Below are positions 11 through 5,516 of a stretch of DNA of 32,407 nt, in pieces. Each line of letters begins with the position of its first letter. Within the stretch, counting starts at the first letter, position 1. Origin of the DNA: a virus; the IMG/VR virus record IMGVR_UViG_3300017986_000075, positions 1 to 32,407 of that record; one strand, 5' to 3'. The translations under genes were made by a program, and so were the position numbers. The notes under the pieces are model-generated. The model worked only from the letters and a program-made list of their open reading frames with translations. It did not search any database and was not told the DNA's origin.

Positions 11-1954
11 ATGGCATTTAGTACAACACCGAGAAAACCAATGATGTATTTTTGGAGTAATGATTTAGGACTGACTGGAACATCAAACCAAAGAGATAAC
101 GACCACGATGGTGAACAGGCAGAAATTCATGTTGAAGAAATAGATAATCATTTAACTCACAAAAATTTAATTACACCAGATTATTCAATTGATGAAGGTT
201 GTAAGATTAATTTTGGTGGTGAGATTACAATGATTCTCATTGACAAAGAAAATGGAATATGGGGTACATCAGACGGATTAACTCGTAATACTAAAATGTT
301 CTTATTAGGATTATCATTCAGAAACTTTGCAAAAGATAAATCAATCTTTGATAAATATGTTTTTAGGGGTGATGGTAAAACTATTAGATTTCAATTCATT
401 ACAGAGGTTGGTGAATTTGTAGATGATAATTACAAACATACCAATGATATTGTTTTTGAAATTGTTAAAAGAAATCAAAGTATTCAAAATGTTATTGATG
501 ATTATTATAAAGAAACTTTATTTAATCAAAACTTTTTTGTATTGGAACAATTAAAAAAATATAGAGATTGGGTTGAGACCCATAAGTTTAAATCTGATAC
601 AGAGTTATTAAATGCTTTTGAAAATATTCTTAACTTATATCATGTTAGTTGGGCTCCATCAGAAAACACAATTGATGATTTTAGTATTAACTCTGGTGAA
701 CGAGGAGTTGCAACAAATGGTATTAGTTCTGTATCTAATAAAGTGTTAGCAAAATTTCAAAATAAATATTTAAAAGGACAACCAGAAAATCATGAATTAA
801 ATTTGGTTATCAATGAAAAGATAAAATCTATATTTTCACCTATTAGAAAAAGGTTTAAACCTACTCAAGAAAATTGTACCAAAATGTTTAGTTGGGTTTT
901 ACAATCTTATTATACCACAAAGGGTGGATACACAAAAGGTATTGGTAGAGGTAGTGTATTAGATGTTGTATCTAATGAAATTATGAAAGTGTTAGATAAT
1001 GAAATGGAAGATTACGCTCCAAGAAATGATGATGGTGAGATTGATTACAAATATAATGATACATCAATGTTAGAACATTTTAAATCTTCTTTAACATTAT
1101 GGGGTTGGTATAAAGATTTACAAAGAATAAATAAGTATTTTGATAATGGATATATTAATGAAGATGGTACAAGATGGATTCCTATTTTATTAAAATATGA
1201 AAGAGAAACAAAACAAGAACTTACTTTAAAAGAACAAAGAGTTATTCAGAACATTCATATTAATGGTAAGTTTGTTTCTTATTCAAGTTTTGATAAGTTA
1301 GTTGGTTCTTCTATAAATGAAATAGATAGAGATACTGATATATCAAAACTCTTAGTTAAATATTTTGTAAACGATAATTCTGTAGAAACAATTAATTATA
1401 AGAATCAGTTTATAGAATCCTTATTAACTAACAAAGTAAAAGATAGAACAAGCCATTTCCTAAGAAAGTATAATTACATTGATAATATATTAGGACATTG
1501 TTCTTTAAAAAGTACTACAAAAAATTGGGTTAATATAAATCCAAACGAATCAGGTACAGAAGAATGTGAACATTATCTTTCAGTTAAAGGTACTAATAAA
1601 TCAGAAATAAGATATCATGGTATTAACTTTTATAATTTAGATAAAACTACAAATGGTTTAATATCTAATGATTCTATTTCAAATAAAAAAGAAGTTGTTA
1701 AAAACTTGGATGGAACTCTTGGACAATTACATAATCCAAATGATAAATTAGAAAACAATGTAAAGCAATTACTTAATAGTTCAGAATATGATATCTTTAG
1801 AGAAGATTCTTTTGGTGATGAAGATTGGGTTAAAGTATGTTCAGTAGGAGTTATTGGAGATAATGTTTCAAGTGAATTAACAAATAACTTACTCTACAAA
1901 TATAGAAGTGTTCAAATTGATAACTACTTAGAAAAGGTATTCGGTGATAAGTAA
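11..1954 (+). CDS. Unrecognised 647-aa protein heading the PLP/glycosyltransferase block
   Basis: I do not recognise a family here. The protein is soluble, rich in Asn, Lys, Asp and aromatic residues, with no signal peptide or membrane segment. The first 40 or so residues are polar and the middle (about residues 150-220) looks helical. There is no obvious catalytic signature such as DxD, a P-loop or HNH. The start ATG lies only 10 bases inside the window and has no convincing Shine-Dalgarno, so ATG at 41 or 44 is an alternative. Its stop overlaps the GTG start of the PLP-type enzyme, which points to co-translation, and it may serve the same pathway as the following three genes. That link is inferred from position only. 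Confidence 0.6.
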   Translation: MAFSTTPRKPMMYFWSNDLGLTGTSNQRDNDHDGEQAEIHVEEIDNHLTHKNLITPDYSIDEGCKINFGGEITMILIDKENGIWGTSDGLTRNTKMFLLGLSFRNFAKDKSIFDKYVFRGDGKTIRFQFITEVGEFVDDNYKHTNDIVFEIVKRNQSIQNVIDDYYKETLFNQNFFVLEQLKKYRDWVETHKFKSDTELLNAFENILNLYHVSWAPSENTIDDFSINSGERGVATNGISSVSNKVLAKFQNKYLKGQPENHELNLVINEKIKSIFSPIRKRFKPTQENCTKMFSWVLQSYYTTKGGYTKGIGRGSVLDVVSNEIMKVLDNEMEDYAPRNDDGEIDYKYNDTSMLEHFKSSLTLWGWYKDLQRINKYFDNGYINEDGTRWIPILLKYERETKQELTLKEQRVIQNIHINGKFVSYSSFDKLVGSSINEIDRDTDISKLLVKYFVNDNSVETINYKNQFIESLLTNKVKDRTSHFLRKYNYIDNILGHCSLKSTTKNWVNINPNESGTEECEHYLSVKGTNKSEIRYHGINFYNLDKTTNGLISNDSISNKKEVVKNLDGTLGQLHNPNDKLENNVKQLLNSSEYDIFREDSFGDEDWVKVCSVGVIGDNVSSELTNNLLYKYRSVQIDNYLEKVFGDK

Positions 1955-2714
1955 ATTTCTTGATTATGGTTATGATGATATCAAGTGTGATGTCAAATTA
2001 CCACTTCCTATCATTGAAGAGTTTGATGGTATCAGAGTTGTTCGTGATGATTTACTTGAGGGTGGAACTAAACGAAGAGCTTTCACTCAATATGTTGCAT
2101 CACTTCCTGATGTAGAAGAGTTTGTATATGCATCGCCTCGTCAAGGATATGCACAATTATCATTAGCATATGCTTGTAAAGATTTAGATAGAAAATGTAC
2201 CGTGACTGTTCCAAAGGGTAAACGATATTGGTTGACTGATGAGGCAGAAGAGTTAGGTGCTAATATCATAGAGGTTCCAATGGGATACTTAACAAATATA
2301 CAACATAAGGCTAGAGTATATTGTGAAGAGAATGGAGCTCACTTAATTCCTTTTGGTGGCGACCATCCAATCATTATTGAAGCAATGTGTAGAGCGGCTA
2401 TGAGTTTAGATTCAATCAAACGATTCGAACATCCAAAAGAAGTTTGGACTGTTATGAGTAGTGGTGTATTAAGTAGAGGTTTACAAAAGGCATGGCCTAA
2501 TGCAAAATTTTATGGTGTACAAATAGGACACAACACAACAGAAGAAGAGATGGGTAGAGCAGAAACATTTCGTTCTAAATATAAATTTCAACAAGAGTGT
2601 AAAAAAGATGAACTACCACCATTTCCAAGTTCACTAACTTATGATAGTAAGGCTTGGATGTTCATCAAAGAACACGCAACAAAAGGAGCATTATTTTGGA
2701 ATGTGGGAAAGTAG
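1944..2714 (+). CDS. Fold-type-II PLP-dependent enzyme (ACC deaminase/cysteine synthase-like)
   Basis: A 256-aa protein resembling fold-type-II PLP enzymes such as ACC deaminase, D-cysteine desulfhydrase and threonine synthase. Residues 39-45 read EGGTKRR, matching the GGNKxR-type motif, with Lys43 the likely Schiff-base lysine. Residues 63-78 (ASPRQGYAQLSLAYAC) match the segment after the lysine that contacts substrate and cofactor, followed by the usual A/LGxxCTVxxP strand near 85-90. Residues 172-180 (SSGVLSRGL) sit where the glycine-rich phosphate loop GSGGT is normally found, so that loop is altered. It is shorter than the usual 320-340 aa, so the C-terminus is reduced. The start is GTG at 1944 with AAAGG just upstream. 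It overlaps the previous gene by 11 bases. The reaction and substrate are unknown; glycosyltransferase neighbours suggest modification of DNA or a glycan. Confidence 0.7.
   Translation: MISKFLDYGYDDIKCDVKLPLPIIEEFDGIRVVRDDLLEGGTKRRAFTQYVASLPDVEEFVYASPRQGYAQLSLAYACKDLDRKCTVTVPKGKRYWLTDEAEELGANIIEVPMGYLTNIQHKARVYCEENGAHLIPFGGDHPIIIEAMCRAAMSLDSIKRFEHPKEVWTVMSSGVLSRGLQKAWPNAKFYGVQIGHNTTEEEMGRAETFRSKYKFQQECKKDELPPFPSSLTYDSKAWMFIKEHATKGALFWNVGK
2684..2688 (+). promoter_or_regulatory. Ribosome binding site that selects a TTG start
   Basis: AGGAG lies seven bases before TTG at 2696, inside the 3' end of the PLP-enzyme gene. No comparable site precedes the in-frame ATG at 2654. This favours TTG 2696 as the start of the downstream glycosyltransferase and suggests translational coupling. 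Confidence 0.55.
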
Positions 2715-3853
2715 TAGTTACTCGATTACGAAGTACAGAATATTATAAAGGTGAACCATTAAATCATATTGTTGATTCACATTATCATTTGTTAAATAAC
2801 TTCATAGAAAAATATGATACATGGCCACATTCTTTTGATACCTACAATTGTTCTTTACCATCACGAGAAAAGAAAAGAACTAATGTTAGAGATTTAAATA
2901 TACTTAAAGAATCTGATGTGTTGATAATACCAAGTGAAGCTGAATTTGCTTATAACATTTATGGTAGGATTCAAAATCTATTAATGGGTAGAAGTTGGGG
3001 TAATGTAGAATACATGAGAGAAATTTTAAGAGATAATCCTAAACCACGAAAAGTTATTTTGTTCACAAGTGATAAAGCAGATACAATAGAATTATATAGA
3101 GATAAAGTTTTTAAAGATGTTCCTAATTTAACATTTTACCAAATAGATGAAAGTGAGTTTCCAGGTGGAGTACATCATTTAAAATATATAAACATAAAAA
3201 AACAAAATCTTGATACCACGAAAAAAACTGATTTTGGATATTGGGGAACTTCTAAAAAATTTAAAATTGATTCTACATCAGAGATGAGAGATTATCATGT
3301 AAAGGATTATTATAAAGATGGTAAGATTGTAAAGTATGGTACTGCTGGATGTGAATTGAAAACAAGATTTATAGAACCATTGTATGTTGGTAAAGAATCA
3401 AAAGATGAACGACACTTAATATTAAAAGAAATTTATAAAGATGAATCAATTAGTAATAATTTAATTGGATACTTTGATGGATTTCAATACACACATAAGT
3501 TCGATAAGAATATGACTAATATTTTACCACACTTATCAGAATGTAAATTTACACTTTGTTTTAATTGGCCAGGTCAAGAAGAACATTTAACTTCAAGATA
3601 CAATGAGGCATTAGGTTGTGATATTATTCCATTAGTGTGGCAAAATTATGATTGTAATAATCAGTTAGTATTAGATGATAGACAAAGAATGTTTTCTTTC
3701 GAAGATATAAAAAAGTGCTTGACTTCTACATCAGAAAGTGTTAGATTACAATGGTTAAATTCTATTCAAGAAAAGTATTTAAGTGTAACTAAACCAATAG
3801 AATATTATGAGGAATCGTTTAACCAAAAATTAATGAAGATACTAAATGATTGA
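2696..3853 (+). CDS. Exostosin-like (GT-B type) glycosyltransferase
   Basis: With the TTG start the protein is 385 aa. Starting at ATG 2654 would add 14 residues read in another frame over the PLP gene. The C-terminal third carries a signature like that of exostosin/GT47-type transferases: around residues 282-315 there is CKFTLCF, then a Gly, then SRYNEALGCDIIPLVW, i.e. strand, basic Arg, helix, and a strand with I-P-L/V that binds the nucleotide sugar. The N-terminal half is alpha/beta with an ESDVLIIPSEAE segment. There is no signal peptide or membrane segment, so it acts in the cytoplasm. Its stop overlaps the next glycosyltransferase in an ATGATTGA arrangement. It could glycosylate modified bases in phage DNA, a protein or a lipid; the sequence alone does not decide. 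Confidence 0.6.
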   Translation: MECGKVVVTRLRSTEYYKGEPLNHIVDSHYHLLNNFIEKYDTWPHSFDTYNCSLPSREKKRTNVRDLNILKESDVLIIPSEAEFAYNIYGRIQNLLMGRSWGNVEYMREILRDNPKPRKVILFTSDKADTIELYRDKVFKDVPNLTFYQIDESEFPGGVHHLKYINIKKQNLDTTKKTDFGYWGTSKKFKIDSTSEMRDYHVKDYYKDGKIVKYGTAGCELKTRFIEPLYVGKESKDERHLILKEIYKDESISNNLIGYFDGFQYTHKFDKNMTNILPHLSECKFTLCFNWPGQEEHLTSRYNEALGCDIIPLVWQNYDCNNQLVLDDRQRMFSFEDIKKCLTSTSESVRLQWLNSIQEKYLSVTKPIEYYEESFNQKLMKILND

Positions 3854-4721
3854 TAAGATTTATATACCTACAGTTGGCAGACCTAATGAACAAGTAACTT
3901 GGGATAATCTACCAAAACAATTACAAGAAAAAGTTTGTTTTGTTATTCATGAAAGAGAAAAAGATTTATATGATTATGATGCAGAGTATTTAGTATTATC
4001 TGATGAACTAAACACTATTGCAAAAGTTAGGAAAGAAATTATATATCACGCTGATGAACAACGATTTTGTATGTGGGATGATGATGTTATTTTCTACAGA
4101 AGAAATAGAAAGTATTATGGTGATTTAAGAATTAATGAAGTTTATATTCCAGATGTATTAAAAGAAGATGGTAGCCCATTATCAAAATGGAAAATGCAAT
4201 ATAGAGATTTTGTAGAGATGTTTGCTCAATTCAATGAATGGTTTGATAATGAAAAAACTTTAGTTCATATTGGACACAGAAGAACTAATTTGCCACCATT
4301 AGGTTCAACACATGATAACATATTTTTTAATTCTATGCATTGTATTGATGGTAAAAAATGTAAAGGGTTTAGAGATTATGTAGATTGGGATTTATGTCAA
4401 GTTGGTGAAGATGCTAACTTTATGTTAGAGTATTTAACAAGAGGTTATACAAACCGAAGAACAGATTTATATTCAGCACATTGGGGTTCATATCAAGAGG
4501 GTGGTTGTTCGGAATATCGAGATGCAGAGTTTCACAATAAAGAACATGAGAAGTTGATGAATAAATGGCCAGAGTATGTGAGTATTAGAAAAGAAATGAT
4601 GGCTCAAGGTAAAGATGGAAAAAACATTGGTATGATAAAAGAGTTTAAATATGATATGAAAAAAGCACATAGAGATTCTACAAACAAGTATTTAGAAAAC
4701 TTTAAAAAATTTGATAACTAA
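3846..4721 (+). CDS. GT-A glycosyltransferase resembling the TET-associated glycosyltransferase (TAGT) family
   Basis: A 291-aa protein with the layout of small GT-A glycosyltransferases. It starts with a strand and loop IYIPTVGRPNEQVT (residues 5-18), continues with an IAKVRKEII helix (58-66), and has the metal/sugar-nucleotide motif WDDDVIF at 77-83, where Asp78-80 form the DxD. A GEDANFMLEYLTRGY segment near 189-203 would supply the catalytic acidic residue. This combination is what I know from phage TET-associated glycosyltransferases that decorate hydroxymethylated bases, but no TET/JBP or hydroxymethylase gene is visible in the window. It overlaps the upstream glycosyltransferase by 8 bases and is followed by a small gap before the HD gene. 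Other GT-A roles, such as surface glycan modification, are possible. Confidence 0.6.
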   Translation: MIDKIYIPTVGRPNEQVTWDNLPKQLQEKVCFVIHEREKDLYDYDAEYLVLSDELNTIAKVRKEIIYHADEQRFCMWDDDVIFYRRNRKYYGDLRINEVYIPDVLKEDGSPLSKWKMQYRDFVEMFAQFNEWFDNEKTLVHIGHRRTNLPPLGSTHDNIFFNSMHCIDGKKCKGFRDYVDWDLCQVGEDANFMLEYLTRGYTNRRTDLYSAHWGSYQEGGCSEYRDAEFHNKEHEKLMNKWPEYVSIRKEMMAQGKDGKNIGMIKEFKYDMKKAHRDSTNKYLENFKKFDN

Positions 4722-4739: not shown

Positions 4740-5516
4740 ATGACACAATTAACACAAGACCAGTTGGTAAAGAACTATCAAAAACTTCGTAGGTTAGTTA
4801 ATGATACATTTTCAGGTGAACGACTTGAGAGATTAAATGAAATGTATGATTCCTTAGAAGATAGAATAATAGTTGCTCCAGCAAGTGGTAAGGAACATTA
4901 TCATAACGCCTATGTGGGTGGTTATGTAGAGCATGATCTTCATGTAGCTAGTTTAGCTCTAAAGATAAACAAGTTATGGAAAGAGAATGGGGCTCATATA
5001 AATTATACAAATGAAGAATTAGTATTTGCAGCTCTTCATCACGACTTAGGTAAAGTTGGTGATTTGGAGGGTGAGTATTATTCACCAAACGATTCAGATT
5101 GGCATCGTAAGAATCAAGGATTGATTTTCAAACACAATGATGAGATTCAATACATGACTGTTACTGATAGAGCAATATTTCTATTGAATCACTTTGGTGT
5201 AAAGATGTCCAAATGGGAATACATTGGATTAAGATTAACTGATGGGATGTATGAAGAGGCTAACAAAAGTTATTATACAGGTTACATTCACGCAACTCGT
5301 CTTCGTAGTAATATTGCTTATGTTCTACACCAAGCTGATATGATGGCTACTCATCTTGAATATGATAAATGGGAACAAGGTGAAGAACAATCTAAACAAG
5401 AAGTTAGTAAGAAAGTTTCTAACATCAAACAAGCAGTACAAACCGAAACAGAAACTAAACTCACAGGTGATTCACCAAAGGATTTATTTGAAGAGTTGTT
5501 TGGAGAGAAAAAATGA
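4740..5516 (+). CDS. HD-domain phosphohydrolase
   Basis: A 258-aa protein with a metal-dependent HD phosphohydrolase domain. The ligand set is visible: His65 in VEHDLHV, His101-Asp102 in AALHHDLGKVGD, later histidines in the 120-165 region, and a closing Asp in LHQADMMATHLEYD near residue 200. The last 45 residues are charged and Gln/Lys/Glu-rich, like a linker or tail. HD proteins in phages commonly act on nucleotides, phosphodiesters or dNTPs; the substrate here is not evident. The start ATG at 4740 has GGAG eight bases upstream. Its stop overlaps the next start as ATGA. Confidence 0.8.
   Translation: MTQLTQDQLVKNYQKLRRLVNDTFSGERLERLNEMYDSLEDRIIVAPASGKEHYHNAYVGGYVEHDLHVASLALKINKLWKENGAHINYTNEELVFAALHHDLGKVGDLEGEYYSPNDSDWHRKNQGLIFKHNDEIQYMTVTDRAIFLLNHFGVKMSKWEYIGLRLTDGMYEEANKSYYTGYIHATRLRSNIAYVLHQADMMATHLEYDKWEQGEEQSKQEVSKKVSNIKQAVQTETETKLTGDSPKDLFEELFGEKK

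Follow-up and report, generated by a model that had tools for sequence, protein, structure and literature searches.

A methyltransferase-linked PLP enzyme and a TAGT-family glycosyltransferase in a marine bacterial virus: the probable downstream part of a DNA-base hypermodification cassette

We have found that three overlapping ORFs of a marine virus, encoding a fold-type-II PLP enzyme and two putative transferases, are best read from their sequences as belonging to a phage cassette for DNA-base hypermodification, of which they form the downstream portion; we consider this reading probable. DNA hypermodification had been proposed in an earlier note on the same DNA and stands as the best-supported reading, although the reasons for it differ and include the linkage of the PLP enzyme to a DNA methyltransferase. 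The reading is supported because the PLP family includes gp52 of Pseudomonas phage M6 and because PLP-methyltransferase fusions within one ORF occur.

The whole stretch that was analyzed (the window) is a 32,407-bp IMG/VR virus fragment (record IMGVR_UViG_3300017986_000075; G+C 31%) from a marine virus infecting bacteria, and a T4-like baseplate wedge gene is present in it. Three ORFs, well beyond chance expectation, lie on the + strand at 1944-2714, 2696-3853 and 3846-4721, with overlaps of 19 bp between the first two and 8 bp between the last two. Homologues of all three are many, and their gene order is unchanged. The overlap-joined unit of a PLP gene and two transferase genes that the earlier note described is therefore real, once the start of the middle ORF is corrected and the unit is widened: ORF 11-1954 joins it at the 5' side, and an HD-domain gene follows at 4740, after a gap of 18 nt. 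The features are as follows.

11-1954, + strand: 647-aa protein, encoded in the variable slot that separates the methyltransferase and PLP genes; shares 11 bp with the start of the PLP gene
1944-2714, + strand: fold-type-II PLP enzyme, 256 aa, of the PHROG 7093 family and kin of phage M6 gp52 (PF00291 and PHROG 7093 matches)
2070-2072, + strand: codon of Lys43, the presumed PLP Schiff-base lysine (GGTK), invariant in homologues, with a catalytic role suggested by the fold
2696-3853, + strand: possible GT-B-like glycosyltransferase, 385 aa, TTG start (homologues 3' of PLP; weak GT10 similarity)
3846-4721, + strand: TAGT-family GT-A glycosyltransferase, 291 aa (PF20691 above cut-off; PHROG 842)
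4077-4085, + strand: DDD motif (D78-D80) of the TAGT, the presumed metal/nucleotide-sugar site, with D78 and D79 invariant
4740-5516, + strand: HD-domain phosphohydrolase-like gene at the cassette border (weak Pfam HD; PHROG 28876)

The assignment of 1944-2714 to the fold-II PLP enzymes was borne out by matches to PF00291 (42.5 bits against a cut-off of 35; E=6.7e-11) and PHROG 7093 (E=3.1e-38). K43 is invariant across 20 homologues and M6 gp52, and the family shares a conserved signature, PFPS-YDxKAW-FWN; the C-terminal signature is the same in M6 gp52. The latter belongs to the same PHROG and aligned with the window enzyme along its length (98.5% in a profile comparison), at an identity of only 25%. 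A fold-II PLP partner had been regarded as unfamiliar, but M6 gp52, a member of a thymidine-hypermodification cassette, provides the precedent. The family also has remote similarity to serine/threonine dehydratases; an ordinary enzyme of that kind was rejected, as the window protein scores far under every NCBIfam metabolic cut-off. The 5-NedU pathway of M6 involves 5-hydroxymethyluridine, a set of amino-acid transferases and a radical SAM enzyme, and the M6 PLP decarboxylase was reportedly described by Lee et al. in 2021 as acting on a base-linked amino acid. The gene list of the M6-type thymidine cassette places a PLP enzyme beside rSAM (PMC9476957), and the neighbor of M6 gp52 is gp53, with a radical SAM match.

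A contig that is identical to the window over 12,711 bp apart from 15 mismatches (L002; 99.9%) extends beyond the window's first base. It encodes a 536-aa N6/N4-type DNA methyltransferase (about -1660 to -50 in window coordinates) that ends 50 bp before that base, matches PF01555 (N6_N4_Mtase) above the cut-off (6e-7) and carries a TSPPYF motif. In a second contig, L004, whose cassette proteins are 95-97% identical, gene order is the same, and in both contigs 60 bp separate the methyltransferase from the counterpart of ORF 11-1954 on its 3' side. The suggestion that a base hydroxylase might be encoded outside the window was thus correct as to location and not as to kind, as the enzyme found there is an N6/N4-type DNA methyltransferase rather than one of the TET/JBP or thymidylate-synthase type. 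ParB-linked methyltransferases of siphophages (PHROG 498, PHROG 12517) are likewise found beside PLP genes; the methyltransferase of the window lineage differs from them in its N-terminal half and reads TSPPY in place of SCPPY. The two groups are homologous (97.6% in a profile comparison), but many siphophage members have no PLP partner. Visual inspection suggests three more methyltransferase-like genes at L059:3139-5969, 5' of the cassette methyltransferase.

PLP loci were gathered by PLP sequence without regard to methyltransferases and were supplemented by loci recruited via the two transferases. The set comprised 93 distinct PLP sequences. In 48 of them a methyltransferase lies on the same strand no more than 100 bp away, and six share a single ORF with it; it is farther off but within 4 kb in 13, there is none in reach in 11, and 15 loci are cut. 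Counted over the 78 loci with enough flank, the methyltransferase shares an ORF with the PLP enzyme or lies no farther than 100 bp from it in 54, and is found at up to 4 kb in another 13. When the PLP sequences were clustered at 70% identity (18 clusters, 16 evaluable), the link was present in 15/16, the exception being M6. The join takes several forms. The methyltransferase stop overlaps the PLP start in most of L014-L030. In Erythrobacter phages R6L and ZS04, a single ORF of ~812 aa encodes both enzymes, with the PLP domain inserted after motif I of the methyltransferase and before its SCPPY. Mae-JY30 and most bacterial-genome relatives have the order ParB, methyltransferase, PLP; the methyltransferase-PLP overlap in Mae-JY30 and the bacterial-genome loci (mostly alphaproteobacterial) is usually 4 bp. 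An unrelated gene separates the two in the window's clade, and part of the main PLP cluster has no methyltransferase adjacent to the PLP gene. The pairing across unrelated phages and prophages is well supported: marine myoviruses and siphophages have it, and so do bacterial-genome loci. No description of the module was found in the searchable literature, which excluded most subscription journals.

In the reverse direction, a PLP gene is present at about half of 80 methyltransferase loci, a sample biased toward PLP by its PLP-linked queries. The catalytic motif of the methyltransferase shows no difference between PLP-positive and PLP-negative loci, so the PLP enzyme looks like an optional add-on and nothing in the methyltransferase points to unusual donor use. 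A methyltransferase that makes plain N6mA or N4mC, with a PLP enzyme that handles a small molecule (precursor supply or a SAM by-product) and not DNA, would agree with these observations, with the frequent occurrence of the family's methyltransferases without PLP and with an unchanged SCPPY motif, and with the PALP fold being a small-molecule fold with the remote dehydratase similarity noted above. We nevertheless consider it unlikely in light of the several phages whose methyltransferase ORF contains an inserted PLP domain, the membership of M6 gp52 in the PLP family, and NCBIfam scores far below all metabolic cut-offs.

Known modification routes do not fit, because searches of related records turned up no gene for TET, a ThyA-type hydroxymethylase or CmoA, and no radical SAM gene nearby. 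The earlier note had looked to upstream sequence for TET/JBP or thymidylate-synthase-type homologues; TET/JBP dioxygenases and ThyA-family pyrimidine hydroxymethylases were both found in 0/47 related records, several of them 70-100 kb long; all IMG/VR records may be fragments, so these absences are not final. CmoA was found in 0/45 records, and a C5-methylase is absent from the IMG/VR records and was found only in two Erythrobacter phages. Outside M6, no radical SAM gene was found beside the PLP gene; matches occur in 4/41 IMG/VR records, all away from it. One record, G041 (the record behind L060), has seven radical SAM matches within about 12 kb, at about 58-70 kb. The window locus resembles the M6 5-NedU system in that their fold-II PLP enzymes are homologous and share the C-terminal signature, and in being a multi-enzyme phage DNA cassette, but differs in its N-type DNA methyltransferase and glycosyltransferases and in that no ThyA-type gene was found. 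With the CmoA/CmoX/CmoY pathway to 5-carboxymethylcytosine (PMC12783734) it shares the principle of a methyltransferase-fold enzyme installing a handle that later enzymes extend; that pathway, however, uses Cx-SAM and a C5-methyltransferase, and neither CmoA nor a C5-methylase is present in the marine records. It could be argued that the cassette is a variant of a known pathway (5-hmC/5-hmU glycosylation or M6-type thymidine hypermodification) with its hydroxylation genes in unsequenced parts, given that TAGT and M6-like PLP enzymes belong to such pathways and that the records are fragments. The absences just listed, which extend to records of 70-100 kb, and the scarcity and remoteness of radical SAM matches make this quite unlikely.

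Turning to the transferases, identification of the 291-aa protein as a TAGT was upheld by a profile search against PF20691, which gave 37.5 bits (cut-off 27.5; E=3.1e-9) with only profile positions 2-96 of 205 matched. The match to PHROG 842, the T-even beta-glucosyl-HMC-alpha-GT, is nearly full-length (E=2e-24), and D78 and D79 are invariant in nine homologues. The window TAGT is therefore of the same Pfam and PHROG family as that of T-even phages, but no gene for 5-hmC synthesis was found here, and its partner is the methyltransferase-PLP module. The 385-aa ORF most likely starts at TTG 2696, judging from an AAGGAG ribosome-binding site 5' of that codon and an N-terminus that fits the homologues; 2654 is disfavored. 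Its product had been called exostosin-like, a description that is not confirmed, and its glycosyltransferase likeness is weak: there is no match to GT47 (exostosin) in a Pfam search, the GT10 match (E=0.03) falls below the Pfam cut-off, and a profile comparison with three GT10 proteins gave a probability of 23%. Membership in either family is thus not supported, the similarity falling short of significance. We read the protein as a possible GT-B-like glycosyltransferase; it has the motif SRYNEALxxxIIPLVW and a GT10/GT47-like C-terminal motif.

The transferases are swappable cargo 3' of the PLP gene. In two PLP clusters a homologue of the 385-aa protein follows PLP immediately; other homologues adjoin gp46/47, with no PLP gene. 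What stands 3' of PLP may be the 385-aa protein together with TAGT, another GT-B-like protein together with TAGT, just one of them, or neither. A TAGT search independent of PLP placed a PLP gene at 21/28 TAGT loci with enough upstream sequence (counted from the listing); some TAGT loci lack the methyltransferase-PLP module. A methyltransferase-TAGT pair without PLP at L059-L061 was set aside as evidence, since the TAGT there is a 196-aa remnant without its N-terminal part. Phage glycosyltransferases can modify surface or virion acceptors. That the two transferases act on surface polysaccharide or a virion protein and adjoin the module by chance is nonetheless improbable: the 385-aa protein does occur beside gp46/47 without PLP and TAGT does occur without the module, but the TAGT match is above cut-off, its T-even relatives act on DNA (PMC13216743), and three loci with DruA add to the 21/28 with PLP.

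At these three relatives (L255, L256 and L265), DruA stands in place of the methyltransferase and PLP genes and TAGT is kept. Two of them, L255 and L265, were checked: the flanking genes are common to the window's wider lineage, and neither locus showed a methyltransferase-PLP pair. Their DruA genes (PF14236; L255:3204-4403 and L265:3586-4740) lie directly 5' of TAGT or one gene off. The DruA domain was formerly named DUF4338. DUF4338 has been described as a GNAT domain (PMC10853773). This DruA variant also has a 2OG-Fe(II) oxygenase gene (PF13759) between the GT-B-like and HD genes, at L255:8900-9550.

If the ORFs do belong to a hypermodification cassette, the core would be a two-gene module of an N6/N4-type DNA methyltransferase-fold enzyme and the fold-II PLP enzyme. 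Going by its family, the methyltransferase would bind DNA and flip the base out, and the two enzymes might then build an amino-acid-derived substituent on it, one possibility being a SAM-derived aminocarboxypropyl group, which the PLP enzyme would decarboxylate or otherwise reshape. The TAGT, and probably also the 385-aa protein, would then add one or more sugars, and the modified phage DNA would be shielded from host nucleases. The specific chemistry, in which the N-type methyltransferase and PLP enzyme together attach an amino-acid-derived group to an exocyclic nitrogen of the base, TAGT-type transferases glycosylate it, and the module is interchangeable with a DruA/GNAT-like one, is put forward tentatively. 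SAM can serve the PLP enzyme SbzP as an amino-acid donor, with a nucleotide as the acceptor (PMC11610977); we take this as a chemical precedent only and claim no homology to the window enzyme. If correct, the scheme would be a route to hypermodified DNA without pyrimidine hydroxylation, starting from an N-type DNA methyltransferase, would help to explain TAGT genes in phages without T-even glucosyltransferases, and, with the broader hypermodification reading, would give a function to a family of phage PLP enzymes that is widespread and carries the annotation 'threonine dehydratase'. Cultured carriers (Erythrobacter phages R6L and ZS04; Microcystis phage Mae-JY30) make the idea testable now.

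ORF 11-1954 has no significant match in Pfam, PHROG or NCBIfam, and in relatives it is missing or swapped for unrelated proteins of about 500-680 aa, such as those at L005:7986-10004, L009:102-1898, L013:8137-10011 and L043:2534-4066. Apart from a weak ParB match of one cargo gene, proteins of this slot have no significant family match, and the slot between methyltransferase and PLP looks like an exchange hotspot. The HD gene at 4740-5516 matches PHROG 28876 (metal-dependent phosphohydrolase; E=5.6e-14) and, weakly, Pfam HD (0.0055). Almost every marine myovirus relative has this gene at the edge of the cassette, including those with swapped cassette content; its own membership in the cassette is uncertain. 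At L017:12994-14679, a gene with GmrSD_N-like and HNH endonuclease parts lies between TAGT and the HD gene; it is possibly a phage nuclease against unmodified DNA, or a homing gene.
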